From an uncultured Acholeplasma sp. (GTDB lineage Bacteria; Bacillota_I; Bacilli_A; Acholeplasmatales; Acholeplasmataceae): DNA of 64,000 nucleotides. How positions within the stretch are numbered: the first letter of the stretch is position 1; the number at the start of each line of letters is the position of its first letter. Location: positions 1-64,000 of the forward strand of contig CALMNM010000154.1 in assembly GCA_937868795.1 (NCBI GenBank), in the 5' to 3' direction. The notes under the pieces were generated by a model. The model did not search any database and was not told where the DNA came from. It saw nothing but the letters and a program-made list of their open reading frames with translations. A program made the position numbers and the translations under genes. Of this stretch, positions 55 to 7,635 are shown one piece after another.

Positions 55-1066
55 ATGTGTTGAAATCAAGAAATGCGAGAACATCAAGAATGGTGCGTTC
101 AGGATCTTCTTCCATGGGTACATGACCCAATTCTGGATAGATAATAATATCTTCGTCTTGAAGTTCAAGTGTTTCTTTAAATAGCTCAGTCGTTTCTACA
201 GGGATCCATGAATCTTCTTCACCCCATAAGATGATGACAGGAATATCCATTGTTACTAAATGTTCAAGTATGACGAGTTGATCATCAACAGATATCTCTT
301 CAAAAGTATTCTGCAATATGGATTCACGGTGTCCATCCACACGCAACATGGTGTAGTAGCGATCAATCACTTCATCGGTAGGTGAACCAAATGATCCATA
401 AACACCGTTAAGTAATTGCCTAAATAGGAAACGTGGTGTCATCTTACTAATGATTGGGGCAATGAAATCACTCGAGATGAAATTGATAAATCCACCTTCA
501 GGTGCACCACTGGATGACATAGGATAAATGCTGTCAATTAAGATTAATCCTAGTACATTAGTTTGATTTTCACCATGATAGGATCCTGCTAAATACCAAC
601 TGACCCCACCACCCATAGAGTTCCCTCCAATAAAAAATGACTCGATGTTCAAATGGATCAGTAAATTCATCACTGCTTCGGCTGAACGACGAATCGATGT
701 CACTTGATCCGAAAAACCAGTCGATAATCCATGATAAGGCAAATCGATTAAGATAACTCGATACCCTTCATCAAGCAAGCGGTCTTTCCAAACTTCAAAT
801 GTAAGTGCTGAGGAAAATGCACCATGTAATAAAACAACAGTGATATGATCAGGGTCACCATAATCAAGATAATGAAGGGTTACATCATGATTCATTTCAT
901 CTTGCCCAACTACTTCTGTTGTAAAAAAATTGGATTCATCTTCACTATATAGTTCAATAGCCTCTGCATAGGGAATATCGTTTCGAAACATAACGATAGA
1001 TATGAGAAGAATAAGCGATAGGATTATTAAGACGACATACTTGGTGATTTTTAAAACTAATCGCAT
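53..1066 (-). CDS. Membrane-anchored alpha/beta hydrolase
   Basis: A 337-residue alpha/beta-hydrolase-fold enzyme, probably an esterase or lipase of unknown substrate. One N-terminal membrane segment (about residues 5-27) should anchor it with the catalytic domain outside. Seen directly: the oxyanion-hole HGAF at 81-84, the nucleophile elbow GGNSMGGG with Ser150, the acid Asp285 in WGEEDSW and the base His315 in LGHVPMEE. The order and spacing of the triad are normal for the fold. A GGAGG lies 5 bases before the ATG. It stands alone; the next gene upstream is the nitroreductase, over 100 bases away. Substrate cannot be read from the sequence. Confidence 0.85.
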   Translation of the reverse strand: MRLVLKITKYVVLIILSLILLISIVMFRNDIPYAEAIELYSEDESNFFTTEVVGQDEMNHDVTLHYLDYGDPDHITVVLLHGAFSSALTFEVWKDRLLDEGYRVILIDLPYHGLSTGFSDQVTSIRRSAEAVMNLLIHLNIESFFIGGNSMGGGVSWYLAGSYHGENQTNVLGLILIDSIYPMSSSGAPEGGFINFISSDFIAPIISKMTPRFLFRQLLNGVYGSFGSPTDEVIDRYYTMLRVDGHRESILQNTFEEISVDDQLVILEHLVTMDIPVIILWGEEDSWIPVETTELFKETLELQDEDIIIYPELGHVPMEEDPERTILDVLAFLDFNT

Positions 1067-1171
1067 ATATGCCTCCGATAAACACTCATATTTTTTATTG
1101 TGAAAACAATGTATAGAACAAGTTTAAGATGATATGATTCTTTATCATATGATCAGTGTTTATAGTGACGA

Positions 1172-1714
1172 TCATGAATAGATTGTTGTTAGTTCGTAAG
1201 CTGATTTTCTTTTCTTCGGAGTGAGCGTTTGCTCAGGAAAGCCAACCATGACGAGTCCCACGACAATTTCTTGAGATGTTACACCGAGTATATCCTTGAA
1301 ACGATCGGATTCAATATACTTTGGAGTTTTCCATGCTCCACTTAATCCTTCTTCAGTCAAAAGCAATAAGAAATTCTCAATGAGCGCTGCACAAGCTTGC
1401 AAATCTTCGAGTTCATCTCGATAATCTGGATTTTTCGGCATAACGATAGCAAGGACTAAAGGAGCTTGAAATACCTTGTTCAACATTGCTAGTTGCTCAT
1501 TTTGATCAATTTCTTTGAATGAAGATACATATCTCGAAACGAGAGTTTTTTTCCCTTCCCCTTCTAAAATGATAAACCTCCAAGGTTCACGCATTTTATG
1601 ATTTGGAGCGTAGACAGCAAAATCTAACAAATCAATGATTGTATTGGGTTCTACTTTATCACCATTAAATTTTGTTGTAGATACTCTACTTTTTAATGTA
1701 CTTTTGATTGACAT
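1172..1714 (-). CDS. Nitroreductase-family oxidoreductase
   Basis: About 180 residues, an FMN-dependent nitroreductase-family protein (NAD(P)H-dependent reduction of nitro or quinone compounds, or of another electron acceptor). Family signs are the N-terminal helix with SRVSTTKF, the active-site stretch APNHKMREPWRFIIL, and the C-terminal half GLSGAWKTPKYIE followed by VVGLVMVGFPEQT and basic KKRK. The start is placed at the ATG at 1714 because AGGAG lies 9 bases upstream; the longer reading frame to 1759 would translate that ribosome site as Glu-Glu. Substrate unknown. Confidence 0.85.
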   Translation of the reverse strand: MSIKSTLKSRVSTTKFNGDKVEPNTIIDLLDFAVYAPNHKMREPWRFIILEGEGKKTLVSRYVSSFKEIDQNEQLAMLNKVFQAPLVLAIVMPKNPDYRDELEDLQACAALIENFLLLLTEEGLSGAWKTPKYIESDRFKDILGVTSQEIVVGLVMVGFPEQTLTPKKRKSAYELTTIYS

Positions 1715-1813
1715 ATGACTCATCTCCTCACACCTTAATGATACACTTTTGTTGATCATTTGACAAAAAAGATGTCTTGATCAGGCGTGAAATGGAGTCA
1801 ATTGAAGACTAAA

Positions 1814-2236
1814 CTAATGAATCGTTTTTTTGGGATGCAACGTATTGCCTTCGTGATCTTGGATGATTTTGTCGCGAATCATATCAAGAGTCGCCGTAAG
1901 CAGCATGAAAATAAGTACAAGTAAAACAGCGGATTGGAATGTATACTCAATCATCGCGATAACGATGAATAAAACAGAAACGGATACATAGACATTTCTC
2001 AACCAATAACTTAGCTTTGGTTTATAAAGGTGAACTTGATGGAATCCTTCACTCTGGAGCATGGTGATAAACACGATGACGAGTGAATATCCAATCATTC
2101 CACCATACTGAAACAGCAAGGTCGAATTTTGTACAAAATCACTTGCGGGAATGATTTGATTGATCCAACGTTCAGCATTAAAAACTAACGTTAAAACAAT
2201 GCCGATGTAAAATGAATATTTCAAGATTGTTTTCAT
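1814..2236 (-). CDS. Small four-helix membrane protein, unknown
   Basis: A 140-residue integral membrane protein with about four hydrophobic segments (roughly 7-21, 44-61, 83-100 and 101-117) and a basic, soluble C-terminus ending near HPKKTIH. I recognise no family. AAAGGAT lies upstream of the ATG. Its likely promoter has TTGACT at 2316-2311, and just upstream of that lie repeated CTAATT/AATTAG half-sites (2325-2353) that match half-sites in the promoter region of the repeat-peptide gene. That makes it a possible third member of the peptide-regulator system, for instance an immunity, export or response protein, but this is inference. Confidence 0.6.
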   Translation of the reverse strand: MKTILKYSFYIGIVLTLVFNAERWINQIIPASDFVQNSTLLFQYGGMIGYSLVIVFITMLQSEGFHQVHLYKPKLSYWLRNVYVSVSVLFIVIAMIEYTFQSAVLLVLIFMLLTATLDMIRDKIIQDHEGNTLHPKKTIH

Positions 2237-2324
2237 TGATGATCATATCCTTTCAAGTCAAACAAGATAGCAACTATGATTTCTCATGATTCTGCATACA
2301 AGAAGTGGAAAGTCAATTTTCATA

Positions 2325-2353
2325 AATTAGGTATGCTCTAATTCTAGAATTAG
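2325..2353. promoter_or_regulatory. Cluster of CTAATT/AATTAG half-sites with perfect palindrome
   Basis: AATTAG (2325-2330) is followed by the perfect 16-bp palindrome CTAATTCTAGAATTAG (2338-2353). The same six-base half-site occurs in opposed orientation at 3004-3009 and 3018-3023 in front of the repeat-peptide gene. It lies between the 3' end of the peptide gene and the 140-aa membrane-protein gene, just upstream of a TTGACT -35-like element. It may be an operator for a regulator shared by the two promoters; AT-rich palindromes can also arise by chance. Confidence 0.4.
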
Positions 2354-2434
2354 TTGACACCACACACCATTTCACCGTGAATAAGTAATGAAGTAATCTT
2401 AAAAGAATTTTGTCGTGTTTTCGTAAGATACCCC

Positions 2435-2462
2435 TTACACTTGACTATTCATGTGATATAAT
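2435..2462 (+). promoter_or_regulatory. Promoter facing into the peptide gene (antisense)
   Basis: On the plus strand TTACAC (2435-2440), a 16-base spacer and TATAAT (2457-2462) with an upstream TG (extended -10, TGA before the hexamer) would start transcription near 2469, running through the repeat array antisense to the peptide gene. No Shine-Dalgarno site or credible gene follows on the plus strand, so an antisense RNA is the simplest product. Motif evidence only. Confidence 0.35.
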
Positions 2463-2485
2463 TGTGATGTGTTTGAATGTAGCGA

Positions 2486-2983
2486 TTAAATTTCTGTACC
2501 GCGACGAACGATCTCTGGATAGCCTGCGTCATCAAAATCCACTGGAGTTCTGCGAACGATTTCTGGGTAACCTGCATCGTCAAAATCTAGTGGTGTTCTG
2601 CGAACGATTTCTGGGTATCCTGCATCATCAAAATCTAGTGGTGTTCTGCGAACGATCTCTGGATAACCTGCATCATCAAAATCCACTGGAGTTCTGCGAA
2701 CGATTTCGGGGTATCCTGCATCGTCAAAATCTACTTGATTTCTGCGGACAAACTCAGAATATCCTTGACTGCGATAATTTGATGGATTTCTTCTAACGAT
2801 TTCTGGATAACCTGCATCATCAAAATCTACTGGTGTTCTGCGAACGATTTCTGGGTAACCTGCATCATCAAAATCTAAGGTAACTTGATCGGCTGATGAA
2901 TTTTCAGCTGCTAAATAAGATAAACCGATATGACCGAATAATACTGCGACAAATAATACTGCGACAACGACTAATTTTTTCAT
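2486..2983 (-). CDS. Secreted repeat precursor, candidate multi-copy signalling peptide
   Basis: A 165-residue exported precursor of a kind I cannot assign to a known family. Residues 1-25 form a Sec signal peptide (MKK, hydrophobic core, SYLAA cleavage region). Residues 37-165 are eight tandem 16-residue units: seven carry the identical core DFDDAGYPEIVRR followed by linkers TPV, TPL, NPS or, at the end, GTEI; the third unit is divergent (NYRSQGYSEFVRR). Every unit ends in a dibasic RR, a natural processing site. Almost nothing exists outside signal peptide, short spacer and repeats, which resembles the yeast alpha-factor precursor plan. A strong GGGAGG lies 8 bases before the ATG. The divergent neighbour at 3097 is an HTH/helical-repeat regulator of the type that binds short imported peptides. 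Inferred role: source of a quorum-sensing peptide. Alternatives: a secreted structural or antimicrobial repeat protein. Confidence 0.85.
   Translation of the reverse strand: MKKLVVVAVLFVAVLFGHIGLSYLAAENSSADQVTLDFDDAGYPEIVRRTPVDFDDAGYPEIVRRNPSNYRSQGYSEFVRRNQVDFDDAGYPEIVRRTPVDFDDAGYPEIVRRTPLDFDDAGYPEIVRRTPLDFDDAGYPEIVRRTPVDFDDAGYPEIVRRGTEI
2489..2875 (-). repeat. Eight in-frame 48-bp tandem repeats
   Basis: Period 48 bases, in frame with the precursor. Comparing the copies, the seven canonical cores differ in codons (for example GATGAC versus GACGAT for Asp-Asp, GGC/GGT/GGA for Gly, TAT/TAC for Tyr, GAG/GAA for Glu, CGTCGC/CGCAGA/AGAAGA for Arg-Arg, CCA/CCC for Pro) but never in amino acid. 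Copy three, at about 2732-2779, keeps only GY, E, V and RR. Confidence 0.95.
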
Positions 2984-3002
2984 GGCTCATGCCTCCCTTT
3001 TC

Positions 3003-3050
3003 CCTAATTGTATTATCAATTAGGAGAAAAGAACAGGGCGTATACGCCCT
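3003..3050. promoter_or_regulatory. Divergent control region with two perfect inverted repeats
   Basis: CCTAATTG (3003-3010) and CAATTAGG (3017-3024) form a perfect 8-bp inverted repeat around TATTAT. AGGGCGTATACGCCCT (3035-3050) is a perfect 16-bp palindrome, GC-rich in an AT-rich region. On the minus strand TACAAT (3012-3007) or GATAAT (3017-3012) can be the -10 of the peptide gene; neither has a good -35, and the GC palindrome is centred about 42 bases upstream of the start predicted from TACAAT, the usual place for an activator that replaces a -35 box. Probable binding site of the divergent regulator. Confidence 0.6.
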
Positions 3051-3096
3051 ATTCGTACATAACGCAATGAAAATGAAATGTAAATGGAGTGAAAAT

Positions 3097-4023
3097 GTGA
3101 AATCTAGAGAGATTTGTAACTATTTAGAACAACTTAGAGCAGCAAGAAACATCTCACAAGAATCATTTACACAAAATGTTACCTCACTTCGTCAATATCG
3201 GAGATATTTGACAGGTGAATCTGACATTCCTTTTCCTGTGCTCGATCAGCTCTGTGTTAAGCTTGGTGTACAAACCATGAATTTTGTCATGGAAATTGAA
3301 ACTGCAAGAATTGAAGAATCAAAAAGAATCGATCAATTCTACAACTTTGTTGTCAACTCGAATGAAGTCGAAATTCAACGAATGAAAGAGGAATTTAACC
3401 ATAAAGATTTCCTTGAAACGGAAAACAAAATGCTCTTTGACCATAGTGTCCTACTCTATGATGTCATCACGAACAAAATCGATCTCGAAACTGCATGTTC
3501 ATTGACAAAACAAATGGTTAATTTTCAAAACATGAGTAAGCAAACCGCGTTCACCATGACTGAAATGCTCATTTTGACTTCATTACTCGACCTAGATACA
3601 AACTCGATTGAGACCGATGAAATTGCCGACAAAATTGAGGTAGTTCTTGAAGACCAGAGAGTAGTTGTGGGTTCATCAATCAATACTGCTTATCCACTCG
3701 TCTTATTCAGACTCGCAAAATACTCAGGCAAGAAAAAAGAATTCGATAAAGTTTTAAAGTATTGTAATTTAGGGATTGATCATGCATTGCAAGATAAAAG
3801 TTTTTATCTTCTTGACTATTTCTATTATTTCAGTGCTCTTGCTTGTTACCGATTAAGTGACTTTGATCGATATGAAGAGATGGTCACACGCTGCTTTGTA
3901 GCACTGCAAATCGATAACAATTCAAAAAAGATTGAGCGATTTGAACAGCTCATGGAAAGAGATTTTGGCATTGAACTCTCTTCATTCGTATTAGAACATT
4001 TTAAAAACTCGATAAAGAAATAA
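3097..4023 (+). CDS. HTH plus helical-repeat (RRNPP/XRE-like) regulator
   Basis: A 308-residue cytoplasmic regulator with an N-terminal XRE-type helix-turn-helix (residues about 3-55, ICNYLEQLRAARNISQES then SLRQYRRYLTGES) and an all-helical C-terminal part with TPR-like helix pairs (for example YPLVLFRLAKYSGKKKEF and DYFYYFSALACYRLSDF). That layout is typical of the Rgg/PlcR/AimR-type receptors that bind short peptides in their TPR superhelix. I place the start at GTG 3097: TGGAG lies 7 bases before it, the product begins right at the HTH, and the upstream in-frame ATGs at 3067 and 3073 lack ribosome sites. It is divergent from the repeat-peptide gene and ends in its own terminator. Ligand assignment to the neighbouring peptide is inference. 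Confidence 0.8.
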   Translation: MKSREICNYLEQLRAARNISQESFTQNVTSLRQYRRYLTGESDIPFPVLDQLCVKLGVQTMNFVMEIETARIEESKRIDQFYNFVVNSNEVEIQRMKEEFNHKDFLETENKMLFDHSVLLYDVITNKIDLETACSLTKQMVNFQNMSKQTAFTMTEMLILTSLLDLDTNSIETDEIADKIEVVLEDQRVVVGSSINTAYPLVLFRLAKYSGKKKEFDKVLKYCNLGIDHALQDKSFYLLDYFYYFSALACYRLSDFDRYEEMVTRCFVALQIDNNSKKIERFEQLMERDFGIELSSFVLEHFKNSIKK

Positions 4024-4050
4024 CTGGGTGAAAAATAGCACCCAGTTTTT
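4022..4050 (+). terminator. Terminator of the peptide-receptor-like regulator
   Basis: AACTGGGTG (4022-4030) pairs with CACCCAGTT (4039-4047) around an 8-base loop, followed by Ts. It overlaps the stop codon, so the regulator is a single-gene transcript. Confidence 0.9.
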
Positions 4051-4061
4051 AATCTTTCATG

Positions 4062-4067
4062 TATAAT
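4062..4067 (+). promoter_or_regulatory. -10 box of the methyltransferase gene
   Basis: TATAAT at 4062-4067 without a clear -35. If used, transcription starts near 4074, which excludes an ATG at 4066 as start codon and favours GTG 4087. Confidence 0.45.
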
Positions 4068-4086
4068 GTTCATGGAGTTGATATAT

Positions 4087-5262
4087 GTGGAACCATGCAA
4101 AATTACATTAAAACCTCGTGAAGAAGAACGACTTCTCTATGGCCATCCTTGGGTTTTTAGTAACGAGATTGATAAAATTGAAGGTAAAATACAAAGTGGT
4201 GACATCGCTTTTGTTTTTTCTTCGAAAAACCAATTCATTGGTAAGGGATTGTTAAATACGAGTTCGAAAATATTCGTAAGACTTTTATCTAGAAAAATGG
4301 ATGAGATTATTGATGAAAACTTCTTTAGATCAATCATCACTAAAGCCAATCAAACACGAATAGATCTAGGCTATCAGAATAGTTATCGTGTGCTTTTTGG
4401 TGAAGCAGATGGTATACCAGGTTTGATCGTTGATAAATATGGTGATTATCTTGTTCTTCAAATCTTATCATTGGGGATTGATCTTCGTAAAAAAATATTG
4501 ATTGATATTCTTGTTGATTTGTTTAAACCAAGAGGAATCTTTGAACGAAGCGATGCTCCTGTTCGAAAAAAAGAGGGACTAGAGTTATTTACTGGTGTTG
4601 TATATGGGACTGTTCCTGATTTTGTCCAAATCAAAGAAAATGAATTGTTGATGAACATCGATTTAAAGCATGGTCAGAAAACAGGTTCTTTTTTGGATCA
4701 ACAAGATAACCATAAAGCAATCAAGCCTTATGTTAAGAACAAAGACGTACTCGATTGTTTTTCACATATTGGTGGGTTTGGACTTCATGCGGCATATTAT
4801 GGAGCAAAAAATGTTACATGTGTTGATATTTCAAAAAAGGCTGTTGAAGATATTAAACTTAACGCAAAACTTAATCGATTAGATCACGTAAATGCATTGG
4901 AAGCAGACGTCTTTGAACTGTTAAGACAATATCAAAGCGAACAAAAACAATTCGATGTCATCGTGCTCGATCCACCTGCATTTGCAAAGAAAAATGATGA
5001 TGTAAAACGAGCATTTCAGGGATACAAAGATATCAATCTTCAAGCACTAAAACTCATCAAAGAAGATGGTTATTTAGTCACATGCTCTTGTTCACATTAT
5101 ATGACTCCATCACTCTTTTTGGAGATGCTCATGGAAGCATCAAAGGATGCAAAACGTATTACCCAAATGATTGAATTTCGTATACAAGGAAAAGATCATC
5201 CTGTACTTCTTGGTTCAGATGAGAGCTTATATCTCAAGTGCGTTGTGTTAAAGGTTAAGTAA
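4087..5262 (+). CDS. rlmI: RlmI-like rRNA (cytosine-C5) methyltransferase
   Basis: About 391 residues, an S-adenosylmethionine-dependent class I methyltransferase of the RlmI/YccW family, expected to methylate a cytosine C5 of 23S rRNA. An N-terminal PUA domain (about 1-75, with ERLLYGHPWVFSNEI) is followed by a linker and the Rossmann methyltransferase domain (about 180-390) with the SAM loop DCFSHIGGFGLHAAYYGA and the catalytic-site motif LDPPAF. The late VTCSCSH carries the conserved cysteines. Start chosen at GTG 4087, 9 bases after GGAG; an in-frame ATG at 4066 overlaps the likely -10 box. Exact target base is inferred from family. Confidence 0.82.
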   Translation: MEPCKITLKPREEERLLYGHPWVFSNEIDKIEGKIQSGDIAFVFSSKNQFIGKGLLNTSSKIFVRLLSRKMDEIIDENFFRSIITKANQTRIDLGYQNSYRVLFGEADGIPGLIVDKYGDYLVLQILSLGIDLRKKILIDILVDLFKPRGIFERSDAPVRKKEGLELFTGVVYGTVPDFVQIKENELLMNIDLKHGQKTGSFLDQQDNHKAIKPYVKNKDVLDCFSHIGGFGLHAAYYGAKNVTCVDISKKAVEDIKLNAKLNRLDHVNALEADVFELLRQYQSEQKQFDVIVLDPPAFAKKNDDVKRAFQGYKDINLQALKLIKEDGYLVTCSCSHYMTPSLFLEMLMEASKDAKRITQMIEFRIQGKDHPVLLGSDESLYLKCVVLKVK

Positions 5263-5290
5263 AAAACGCAGATGGTTTCTGCGTTTTATT
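5263..5290. terminator. Bidirectional terminator
   Basis: AAAACGCAGA (5263-5272) and TCTGCGTTTT (5278-5287) form a 10-bp stem with a 5-base loop between the convergent methyltransferase and acetyltransferase genes. Confidence 0.85.
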
Positions 5291-5331
5291 TTATTCCTAT
5301 ATATCGCTTTGTTATGCGATATTCTATCATT

Positions 5332-5883
5332 CTATTCTTTAATATTTTCTGCGTCACTTAGCCGCATTCCAAGTTCAAATCTCACTTCTTTTTTATCGAT
5401 ATCATGGTTAGTATATGACATGGTATCCAGCCCAATAAAGTGCATACCGCGATTGAAATAAAACCGAATTGCGGGTTCGTTACAACTTTGACATTCGAGT
5501 ACAATCGCTCTTGCGTTCAAGCCTTTTGCAACGTCAATCATGTGATCAAATAGAGCTTTTCCGTAACCTTCACCACGAAATTTTTTATCAACTAAAAAGT
5601 TCCAAATTCGAAACCGATTGTTCCAGGTTTCAAGTGATCCTTCAATCACTGCAACCAATTTTTTTCGATCGAAAATTCCATAGACTAATGGATTATCAAT
5701 GTAGCTTGCGAAGAGATGATCTTGAAATGTTTTGACCTGCTTGCGCAAAAATCTTTTTTTCTTAATCGATATCTTAATTTCACCACGCTTCTTTATAGAA
5801 ACATGATAATAATATTTAGTTGTGTACTCATATTCAAGAAGATGATCTTGATAATCACCTCTTTTTAGTTCTATGATTTTCAT
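5332..5883 (-). CDS. GNAT acetyltransferase, streptothricin-acetyltransferase-like
   Basis: A 183-residue GNAT-fold N-acetyltransferase that transfers acetyl from acetyl-CoA. The acetyl-CoA loop is RGEGYGKALFDH in the middle of the protein; before it, ETWNNRFRIWNFLVDKKF and after it IVLECQSCNEPAIRFYFNRGM and GLDTMSYTNHDIDKKEVRFELGMRL match the pattern I know from streptothricin acetyltransferases (SatA type). The N-terminal 60 residues are unusually basic. Convergent with the upstream methyltransferase and sharing its terminator. Whether it gives drug resistance or modifies a metabolite or protein is not known; the substrate call is weak. Confidence 0.7.
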   Translation of the reverse strand: MKIIELKRGDYQDHLLEYEYTTKYYYHVSIKKRGEIKISIKKKRFLRKQVKTFQDHLFASYIDNPLVYGIFDRKKLVAVIEGSLETWNNRFRIWNFLVDKKFRGEGYGKALFDHMIDVAKGLNARAIVLECQSCNEPAIRFYFNRGMHFIGLDTMSYTNHDIDKKEVRFELGMRLSDAENIKE

Positions 5884-6009
5884 CGCATAGTCCGTTCCCT
5901 ATATTCTCTATTAAACTTATTATATACAATTTTATCCGTTTGCTCAAGTCGATTTCATCTAGTGAATTCTTCTTCCCTATGGTAGAATGTACATGAAAGG
6001 GGTGTCGAC

Positions 6010-6633
6010 ATGTTACGCATTCTTCTCACCGGCTTTGAGCCATTTGGTGGAGAAACGATCAATCCTTCTATGGAAGCGATCAGACAACTTGATCTTACAA
6101 CATTTCCAGCGGAAATTTATCTATATGAAGTTCCCGTTGCCTTCTATGATTCCTCCCGATATGTGATTGAAAGAATACACGAAATTCAACCGGATATCAT
6201 CATGATGATTGGACAAGCTGGCGGAAGAAAGGATGTATCCATCGAAAGAATTGCAATTAATGTTGATGATTCGGCAATACCAGATAATAATGGGGTCCTG
6301 CCTAAAGATGATCCAATCTCTATTTTCGGAGAGTCAGCCTATTTTTCCACCCTTCCGATTAAAGCTATCGTTGAAAACATTCGTAAACTCCATATTCCTT
6401 GTCATGTGTCAAATTCTGCAGGTACATATGTTTGTAACCACCTGTTCTACTCTGTCATGCATGAACTCCACGAGAGACACATGAAGCATATAAAAGCTGG
6501 ATTTATTCATGTGCCATACGCTAATGAACAAGTAATTCACAAGCAGCACCTCTTCGCTTTAGAAATCAAACTCATTTCAAAAGCGATTGAATCAGCTATT
6601 CGAACAACCATCGATTCATTCAATCTAAAATAA
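6010..6633 (+). CDS. pcp: Pyroglutamyl-peptidase I
   Basis: A 207-residue cytoplasmic cysteine peptidase that removes N-terminal pyroglutamate from peptides. The family signature LLTGFEPFGGETINPS opens the protein; the catalytic residues are visible as Glu in GGRKDVSIERIAINVDD, Cys in SNSAGTYVCNHLFYS and His in GFIHVPYANEQ. Length is normal for the family. GAAAGGGG lies before the ATG. It forms a single-gene transcript with its own terminator. Confidence 0.95.
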   Translation: MLRILLTGFEPFGGETINPSMEAIRQLDLTTFPAEIYLYEVPVAFYDSSRYVIERIHEIQPDIIMMIGQAGGRKDVSIERIAINVDDSAIPDNNGVLPKDDPISIFGESAYFSTLPIKAIVENIRKLHIPCHVSNSAGTYVCNHLFYSVMHELHERHMKHIKAGFIHVPYANEQVIHKQHLFALEIKLISKAIESAIRTTIDSFNLK

Positions 6634-6636
6634 AGA

Positions 6637-6670
6637 GCACTATATCCACATGCGATATAATGCCTTTTTT
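6637..6670. terminator. Terminator after pcp
   Basis: GCACTATATC and GATATAATGC form a 10-bp stem with one weak pair, followed by seven Ts. It lies between convergent genes and touches the 3' end of the DUF2087 gene. Confidence 0.8.
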
Positions 6671-6986
6671 ATTTTATCTTATATCTTAAGTAATCATTAG
6701 GATCAACAATCATCCAATAGTCTTTCCCATCAGGGGTTCGATCCATCATCTGGTAATCAATCATATAACGTCGTATCATCACATAGTCGTCAACGATGGG
6801 CTTTAGGATCTCATTCAGTTCTCTTTCATGATAGTGTCTTGTAGGATCAATGAAATGTAACACCATGCAAATGACGATATATTTTCTTTTTTCTTTGACA
6901 GGCATCTTGTTTAAGATTAGTGGATTTTTCTGTATCACATGATGATCCAACACCCATTGAATATCTTGATCTGAAACATCAAACAT
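6669..6986 (-). CDS. DUF2087-domain protein
   Basis: About 105 residues, small soluble protein. The stretch LNKMPVKEKRKYIVICMVLHF, RHYHERELNEILKPIVDDYVMIRRYMIDYQMMDR and DGKDYWMI is the DUF2087 pattern, a winged-helix-like domain often fused to regulators. Start taken at ATG 6986 because GGGAG lies 8 bases upstream; the longer frame to 7001 starts with TTG inside the ribosome site. Function unknown; a DNA-binding role is possible from the fold. Confidence 0.75.
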   Translation of the reverse strand: MFDVSDQDIQWVLDHHVIQKNPLILNKMPVKEKRKYIVICMVLHFIDPTRHYHERELNEILKPIVDDYVMIRRYMIDYQMMDRTPDGKDYWMIVDPNDYLRYKIK

Positions 6987-7038
6987 TGTTATCACTCCCA
7001 ACTTATGATATCACAAATAGACCAAGTTGGTTAGTTAT

Positions 7039-7635
7039 TCAGATATTTTCTAACCAATTTTTTATCAAGGAAATCTCACTAGCGATGATTTGATGACCTG
7101 TATTCAGTAAATGAAAAACAACATTTGCATTTCGTTTCTCAAACATTTGTTTTAGTTCATTTGCTTCTTGCTTTGGAACAATCGAATCATACATTCCAGA
7201 TAACATAAGTATGTTTGTTTTCAGTAAATCGTCATGAGGTGCTTCTTTTAGTGGAACCATTGGACGAATTAAAACAGCTTTATTGATGATGTCTTTTTGG
7301 TGAAATACCATACTGCCAATGATATTTGCTCCATTCGAGTATCCGATAAGGATCGCTTCATCAAGCTTAAACTGATGAACTTTCGCAAGCTCCTGAATTC
7401 GATGAAGATAGTAATATGTTTCCTCTTTTAATGAATCAAGATCAAAAACACCAGGAGCAATCCGCTTAAAGAAACGATACATTCCATTTTCATTCACACG
7501 TCCACGAAATGAAAGCAGATTAGCGTTGCTATCAATTGCTTTGGCTAAAGGGATCAAATCTTTTTCATTTCCTCCCGTTCCATGAAACAAGATCAATGTT
7601 TTATTATTCGTGCCTTTTTCAAAGTATTCAATCAT
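7039..7635 (-). CDS. mhqD: Carboxylesterase, MhqD-like
   Basis: A 198-residue alpha/beta hydrolase. Seen: oxyanion site LFHGTGGNEKDL, nucleophile Ser100 in GYSNGAN, Asp150 in SGMYDSIVP, and His181 in NTGHQI. It is the last gene of an operon with an MhqO-like dioxygenase and an MhqR-like MarR repressor; its ATG overlaps the repressor stop by 4 bases. In Bacillus subtilis the equivalent gene set responds to catechol and quinone stress, where the hydrolase acts on ring-cleavage or quinone products. Gene name is given on the strength of that trio; sequence alone supports a carboxylesterase of the YodD type. Confidence 0.8.
   Translation of the reverse strand: MIEYFEKGTNNKTLILFHGTGGNEKDLIPLAKAIDSNANLLSFRGRVNENGMYRFFKRIAPGVFDLDSLKEETYYYLHRIQELAKVHQFKLDEAILIGYSNGANIIGSMVFHQKDIINKAVLIRPMVPLKEAPHDDLLKTNILMLSGMYDSIVPKQEANELKQMFEKRNANVVFHLLNTGHQIIASEISLIKNWLENI

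Follow-up and report, generated by a model that had tools for sequence, protein, structure and literature searches.

To our knowledge, receptors of the RRNPPA group carry an N-terminal XRE-type helix-turn-helix (HTH) domain, with Rap as the sole exception. The C-terminal part of these proteins of 250–500 aa is a TPR-like helical superhelix of RRNPP topology, and the classic RRNPP precursor carries a single core near its C-terminus. In Bacillus, multi-copy propeptides with up to six copies have been described for AimR, NprR, PlcR and Rap systems, some of them with one deviating copy, and such designs make up 6.7% of the atypically long propeptides in the survey concerned, but 17 of 17 for NprR (PMC9765709). 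Moreover, two duplicated Phr systems yield active peptides, and up to eight copies have been cited (PMC11343458). Since multi-copy propeptides of this kind are described, the architecture is known in kind, and the claim of an earlier sequence-only reading that no described bacterial system has this form was wrong. The alpha-factor precursor of yeast likewise joins a signal peptide to tandem signal copies.

The locus addressed here lies in a window (i.e., the whole analysed stretch of 64,000 nucleotides) from an uncultured Acholeplasma sp., in which the gene for a 165-aa precursor (2486–2983, minus strand) is divergent from that for a 308-aa regulator (3097–4023, plus strand). We assign a probability of about 85% to this pair being an RRNPP-type peptide quorum-sensing circuit of the wall-less Acholeplasmataceae, in which the receptor would act as an activator with positive feedback. 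The pair resembles the RRNPPA systems at large, and PlcR-PapR and ComR-ComS (3u3w, 5jub) in particular, in combining an HTH with a TPR-like superhelix, and shares with them an adjacent small secreted precursor, a short palindromic operator and likely positive autoregulation. It differs from these systems in its receptor (12–17% identity and under the Pfam RNPP_C cut-off), its precursor being divergent from the receptor, its wall-less host, its DFxxSGxPE[W/I]V core and the common occurrence of a multi-copy array. As in the multi-copy Rap-Phr, NprR, AimR and PlcR propeptides, several pheromone copies (sometimes including a deviating one) are carried by each secreted propeptide; whereas these form a minority in the survey cited above, multi-copy precursors prevail here in two receptor clades and reach nine identical copies in strictly periodic units. 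Unlike the alpha-factor system, the family lacks conserved dibasic spacers and has an intracellular receptor, and the two share no homology.

As judged from the ORF, the repeat analysis and the sister-genome orthologue, the window precursor begins with the hydrophobic leader MKKLVVVAVLFVAVLFGHIGLSYLAAE, which a short spacer separates from eight 16-residue units, in agreement with the sequence-only reading. A hydropathy screen predicted the signal peptide MKKLVVVAVLFVAVLFGHIGLSYLAA (2906–2983, minus strand; cleavage site placed by eye). The eight units of 48 nt, with core DFDDAGYPEIV(RR), extend from 2501 to 2884 (minus strand), and Tandem Repeats Finder, run on the window, located the array at 2505–2877. 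The description of this array as seven identical copies plus one variant holds for the core, since seven units share DFDDAGYPEIVRR and the third reads NPSNYRSQGYSEFVRR (2741–2788, minus strand; unit comparison with the sister genome), but not for the flanks, since the residues around the core vary among the seven standard units (VTL, TPV, NQV, TPL). Pairwise comparison of these seven units yielded 103 synonymous versus 55 non-synonymous differences (pN/pS of 0.16), and the array is therefore coding and under selection. The orthologue in the sister genome (L003) contains nine units, the third again being a variant (NPTVYRNSGYPEVVRR); in the window, the variant third unit possibly provides a second signal or a spacer. 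When modelled alone from its single sequence, the window precursor was unfolded (pLDDT 56). Pfam matches on the precursor (Osteoregulin, AhtL-like and others) were dismissed as repeat or composition artefacts, because differing families matched the same repeats, mostly without a significant stretch.

The regulator likely starts at the GTG at 3097, which is preceded by a GGAG ribosome site, with the ATG at 3067 as an alternative (the listed ORF begins at 2896). Its HTH domain (3121–3273, plus strand) is indicated by a weak HTH_3/HTH_31 match and by the helices of the model; the HTH_3, HTH_31 and RNPP_C matches of the window receptor all stay under the curated Pfam cut-offs, and HTH_3 is present at E≤0.01 in 22 of 40 members of the receptor family. 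An AlphaFold model made from 40 homologues reached a mean pLDDT of 89 and a pTM of 0.77, and its top 30 Foldseek matches in the PDB were all PlcR, ComR, Rgg (Rgg2, Rgg3), PrgX or NrpR, the best being 3u3w (PlcR-PapR7-DNA; E of 2.6e-7). TM-scores were moderate (0.5–0.6, with rmsd of 7–10), which could be explained by the flexibility of the superhelix. The fold comparison thus bore out the divergent regulator with HTH and TPR-like helices that had been read from the sequence, and the 308-aa protein displays both the XRE-type HTH and the TPR-like superhelix of RRNPPA receptors. A receptor profile run against PDB sequences retrieved Rgg2 chains (E of ~0.0025) and 5v5t (“conserved domain protein”, E of ~0.001), and the window receptor had no meaningful family match in NCBIfam; searches of NCBIfam, Pfam and PDB profiles placed it by sequence in none of the PlcR, NprR, Rgg, ComR, PrgX, Rap or AimR subfamilies. 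No support emerged for an origin from a mobile element or phage: viral contigs searched with the receptor pattern gave no match, and an RlmI-like methyltransferase gene adjoins the receptor in both the window and L023.

A single-protein scan of named genomes with the receptor gave no match, and a profile scan of named genomes revealed 63 receptor loci. Homologues were found in 50 of 101 related genomes and, in a sample of the class, in 62 of 395 genomes and 31 of 192 genera. The nearest named homologue (87% identical) belongs to the Acholeplasma sp. metagenome assembly SURF_22, and others occur in Acholeplasmataceae, in Acholeplasma laidlawii, granularum, oculi and equifetale, in Peloplasma aerotolerans, and in Izemoplasma and Haloplasma relatives. 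P. aerotolerans, a mollicute without a cell wall that came from a mud volcano, has been cultured (PMC11122141); its strain M4Ah carries a nine-unit array (L084), the same precursor as in G006, a genome that a genome search puts in the genus of the window.

The search for further HTH-TPR genes divergent from repeat precursors, as proposed by the sequence-only reading, was successful across many relatives: at nearly every intact receptor locus, reading the opposite strand revealed a small precursor upstream. A strict automatic screen asked for a ribosome site and a divergent signal-peptide ORF 30–330 nt upstream; of 91 receptor loci, some of them from close relatives, 66 scored positive, versus 21 of 261 control genes. 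The latter rate is best read as an upper bound, since 11 of the 21 control matches contain repeats and probably represent shadow ORFs of the arrays themselves. The adjacent small secreted propeptide of RRNPPA systems is thus present in this family, and about 30 loci carry a multi-copy precursor. Repeat genes lacking a regulator nearby, which would have spoken against the pairing, were looked for in the genus, but all 15 precursors found there with the window protein adjoin a receptor. A signal-peptide precursor was not recognised for the receptors of L002, L026, L033–L036, L040 and L048. At the loci of the second receptor paralogue (L002/L037 on G000:C144, L040, L026 and L033–L035), the receptor faces small and apparently leaderless ORFs. 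Their related motif (WDGFYWIGDPEFIWNP in L002 and L040, or KFSDVGSPEIV, given as FSDVGSPEIV for L026) is conserved between species. In L011/L078 (G003:C16), the array appears frameshifted past its first full unit, leaving most copies out of frame, either by sequencing error or by real loss.

Throughout the family, the core DFxxSGxPE[W/I]V is present in one copy (Acholeplasma) or in two to nine tandem copies per precursor. Arrays comprise, for example, five copies of LDFDDSGYPELIR (L004), six of IDFDDSGFPEFVR (L005), five of LDFDGNDAPDWVS (L009), six of LDFDNCGEPDWVR (L012), eight of LDFHNSGNPEYEE plus one variant (L014/L084) and nine of IDFDDRDEPEFIN (L113), and the unit of L007 reads VDFDNAGIPDLPGGTK. 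Single-copy homologues measure 50–75 aa and have the core near the C-terminus (FKKSGLPEWVETFA in L028, VDFEDSGDPEFV in L100, and also L044). Arrays are strictly periodic, with units of mostly 13–20 aa; the typical unit is a 13-mer, and that of the window is three residues longer. Differences among copies were exclusively synonymous in L005 (79/0 synonymous/non-synonymous), L014 (53/0), L113 (96/0) and L126 (122/0). In the receptor tree, 32 of the 63 rows are multi-copy: 23 make up a clade with no other type, eight group within a clade of Izemoplasma type and one stands alone, which indicates several gains (or losses) of multi-copy precursors.

The resemblance to the alpha-factor plan, which the sequence-only reading had seen in the repeated units, did not hold up, and dibasic, Kex2-like cleavage finds no support. 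The family does not conserve dibasic sites between copies: only the window and its nearest relative L003 have RR, and units of other arrays end in a single R (the typical case), E, S, GTK, FF or others. RR is therefore not the processing signal of the family, and dibasic processing was rejected as a general rule; RR may still aid trimming in the window/L003 pair. Among 42 cores aligned by hand, F2, P8 and E/D9 hardly vary and position 7 varies most. Since it is constant inside most arrays and hypervariable between species, position 7 behaves as would be expected of a specificity (pherotype-determining) residue. As a lead, the xP[E/D][I/F][V/I] part of the core resembles NprX (SKPDIVG).

Comparison of patterns across loci revealed a putative operator AACAGGGCGTATACGCCCTATT between both genes (3032–3053), with a perfect 16-bp palindrome at 3035–3050, and related inverted repeats occupy the equivalent site in nearly the whole family. 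In the direction of the precursor, the distance from the operator centre to the start of a –10-like hexamer (TACAAT in the window; 3007–3012, minus strand) is exactly 30 nt in 24 of 24 genus-type loci and, family-wide, in 72 of 80 loci (90%), the next best offset reaching 25%. The presumed transcription start lies ~42 nt downstream of the operator centre, and no –35 element is recognisable. This placement, together with the rigid 30-nt spacing, speaks for class-II activation with positive feedback. The operator is linked to the window receptor by position only, and since that of the paralogous receptor L002 is similar, cross-talk between the two would be possible. Another inverted repeat, CCTAATTG-N6-CAATTAGG (8-bp arms; 3003–3024), lies over the –10 hexamer; it is kept in most of the genus, absent from other clades, and possibly a second operator or a 5′ hairpin.

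In congeneric genomes, the operator pattern alone was enriched over its reversed control, and the combined pattern (operator, 19-nt gap, TANAAT) yielded 79 matches in 19 of 20 genomes, versus none for the reversed pattern. The sites in the window's genome are the precursor promoter itself and those on contigs C120, C113, C137 (pointing toward the contig end), C153, C21 and C144. Genes behind these sites encode two secreted proteins cut by contig ends (L134, L136), whose N-terminal regions are like that of the RHS/YD-repeat protein L221, a 158-aa protein of unassigned family without a Pfam match (L135; conserved in L152, L158, L160 and L162), an SPFH/Band_7 protein (L139; Pfam E of 7e-17) and a secreted 267-aa protein (L138). 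SPFH genes recur downstream of a site in about ten genomes, and the ~158-aa protein is likewise a recurrent regulon member. L221 itself (198–7121 on G003:C42) is a 2307-aa secreted RHS/YD-repeat protein behind a site in G003. Its RHS core end is typical, its C-terminal tail is short and variable, and the gene for a small lipoprotein follows; the two could be a polymorphic toxin and its partner.

The RRNPP-type receptor facing a multi-copy pheromone precursor, which the sequence-only reading had proposed, is thus supported by the fold, the family-wide co-occurrence, the selection on the repeats and the shared operator. The gene pair, the purifying selection on the repeats, the receptor fold, the operator, the fixed –10 spacing, the regulon sites and their conservation were computed; for export, cleavage, import, binding, direction of regulation and density dependence, we infer the following course. 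The precursor would be exported by Sec and relieved of its signal peptide by signal peptidase I (a gene for which is present in the genome), after which an extracellular or membrane protease would cut the array between its units into several short peptides containing DFDDAGYPEIV. These would return to the cytoplasm, probably via an oligopeptide (Opp) transporter (the genome encodes two OppA-type SBP_bac_5 binding proteins, whose substrate may be another peptide), and bind the divergent receptor in its TPR-like pocket. With peptide bound, the receptor would then attach to the palindrome at 3032–3053 and activate the precursor promoter as a class-II activator, thereby closing a positive feedback loop. 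It would also activate about six other promoters with the same operator and –10 spacing, with RHS/YD-repeat-type secreted proteins, the SPFH protein, the conserved 158-aa protein and a small secreted protein as targets.

The same receptor and peptide could also operate in the opposite sense, with the unliganded receptor as repressor or standing activator that is switched off by the peptide, as is partly the case for PrgX/cCF10 and Rgg3/SHP. The closest folds are indeed those of activators (PlcR, ComR) as well as of repressor types (PrgX, Rgg3), but an operator at ~42 nt, a –10 spacing held rigidly at 30 nt over some 80 loci and many regulon sites, and no recognisable –35 together constitute an activator layout, making such a switch-off circuit unlikely. 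That the repeat protein would instead be a secreted structural, surface or antimicrobial protein controlled by the regulator, without any signal, fits a long, many-copy secreted array and the secreted proteins among the other regulon members. However, single-copy homologues with the core near the C-terminus, the constant vicinity of an RRNPP-fold receptor (with no orphans in the genus), the unfolded precursor model and the hypervariability of one core position all disfavour this explanation, to which we attach very little credence. It is also quite improbable that the peptide acts inside its producer as self-sensing without export, or that the receptor mainly senses digestion peptides as nutrients: the apparently leaderless ORFs at the second-paralogue loci (WDGFYWIGDPEFIWNP in L002 and L040, FSDVGSPEIV in L026) would suit this, but a ribosome site and a clear hydrophobic leader at the N-terminus are seen in the window precursor and in most of its homologues.

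Beyond the activating quorum-sensing circuit proposed for the window pair, the family as a whole probably constitutes an undescribed RRNPPA subfamily that is widespread in wall-less Mollicutes (Acholeplasmataceae, Izemoplasmatales and relatives), in which “polypheromone” precursors arose at least twice and prevail in two receptor clades. Its promoters would follow a rigid class-II activator layout and, in the genus, would place RHS/YD-repeat secreted proteins, SPFH membrane proteins and other secreted factors under peptide quorum control. Full-text literature searches retrieved no described RRNPP system in Mollicutes, nor a description of the receptor subfamily, the DFxxSGxPE core or multi-copy as the prevailing plan. 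Apparently new here are the lineage, the receptor subfamily, multi-copy precursors as the rule in two clades, and the regulon. Because published screens limited propeptides to 10–100 aa (PMC10075063) or 20–120 aa (PMC9765709), long arrays such as the 165-aa window precursor were left out. If true, no peptide quorum-sensing system would have been described in Mollicutes before this one, judging from the literature searched. The family supplies dozens of species-specific peptide/receptor pairs, and a gene repeats its signal as many as nine times, which allows a guess from sequence at both the mature peptide and the position that sets its specificity. Moreover, it offers a predicted regulon and a cultured host (P. 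aerotolerans M4Ah), and the several multi-copy origins open the question of why many copies are used (dose, several messages or protease timing) to comparative testing.

Finally, some individual sites deserve mention. For Acholeplasma, the operator pattern identified self-sites in four of four genomes and one further site, so the regulon in that genus looks small. In L138 (1310–1507 on G000:C144), a truncated SPFH gene start with its promoter and operator precedes the secreted 267-aa protein, an apparent promoter capture. In L181 (3038–4567 on G016:C63), a radical SAM protein (PF04055) is encoded directly behind an operator and –10 hexamer, which suggests that a peptide-modifying enzyme may be under quorum control in that genome.
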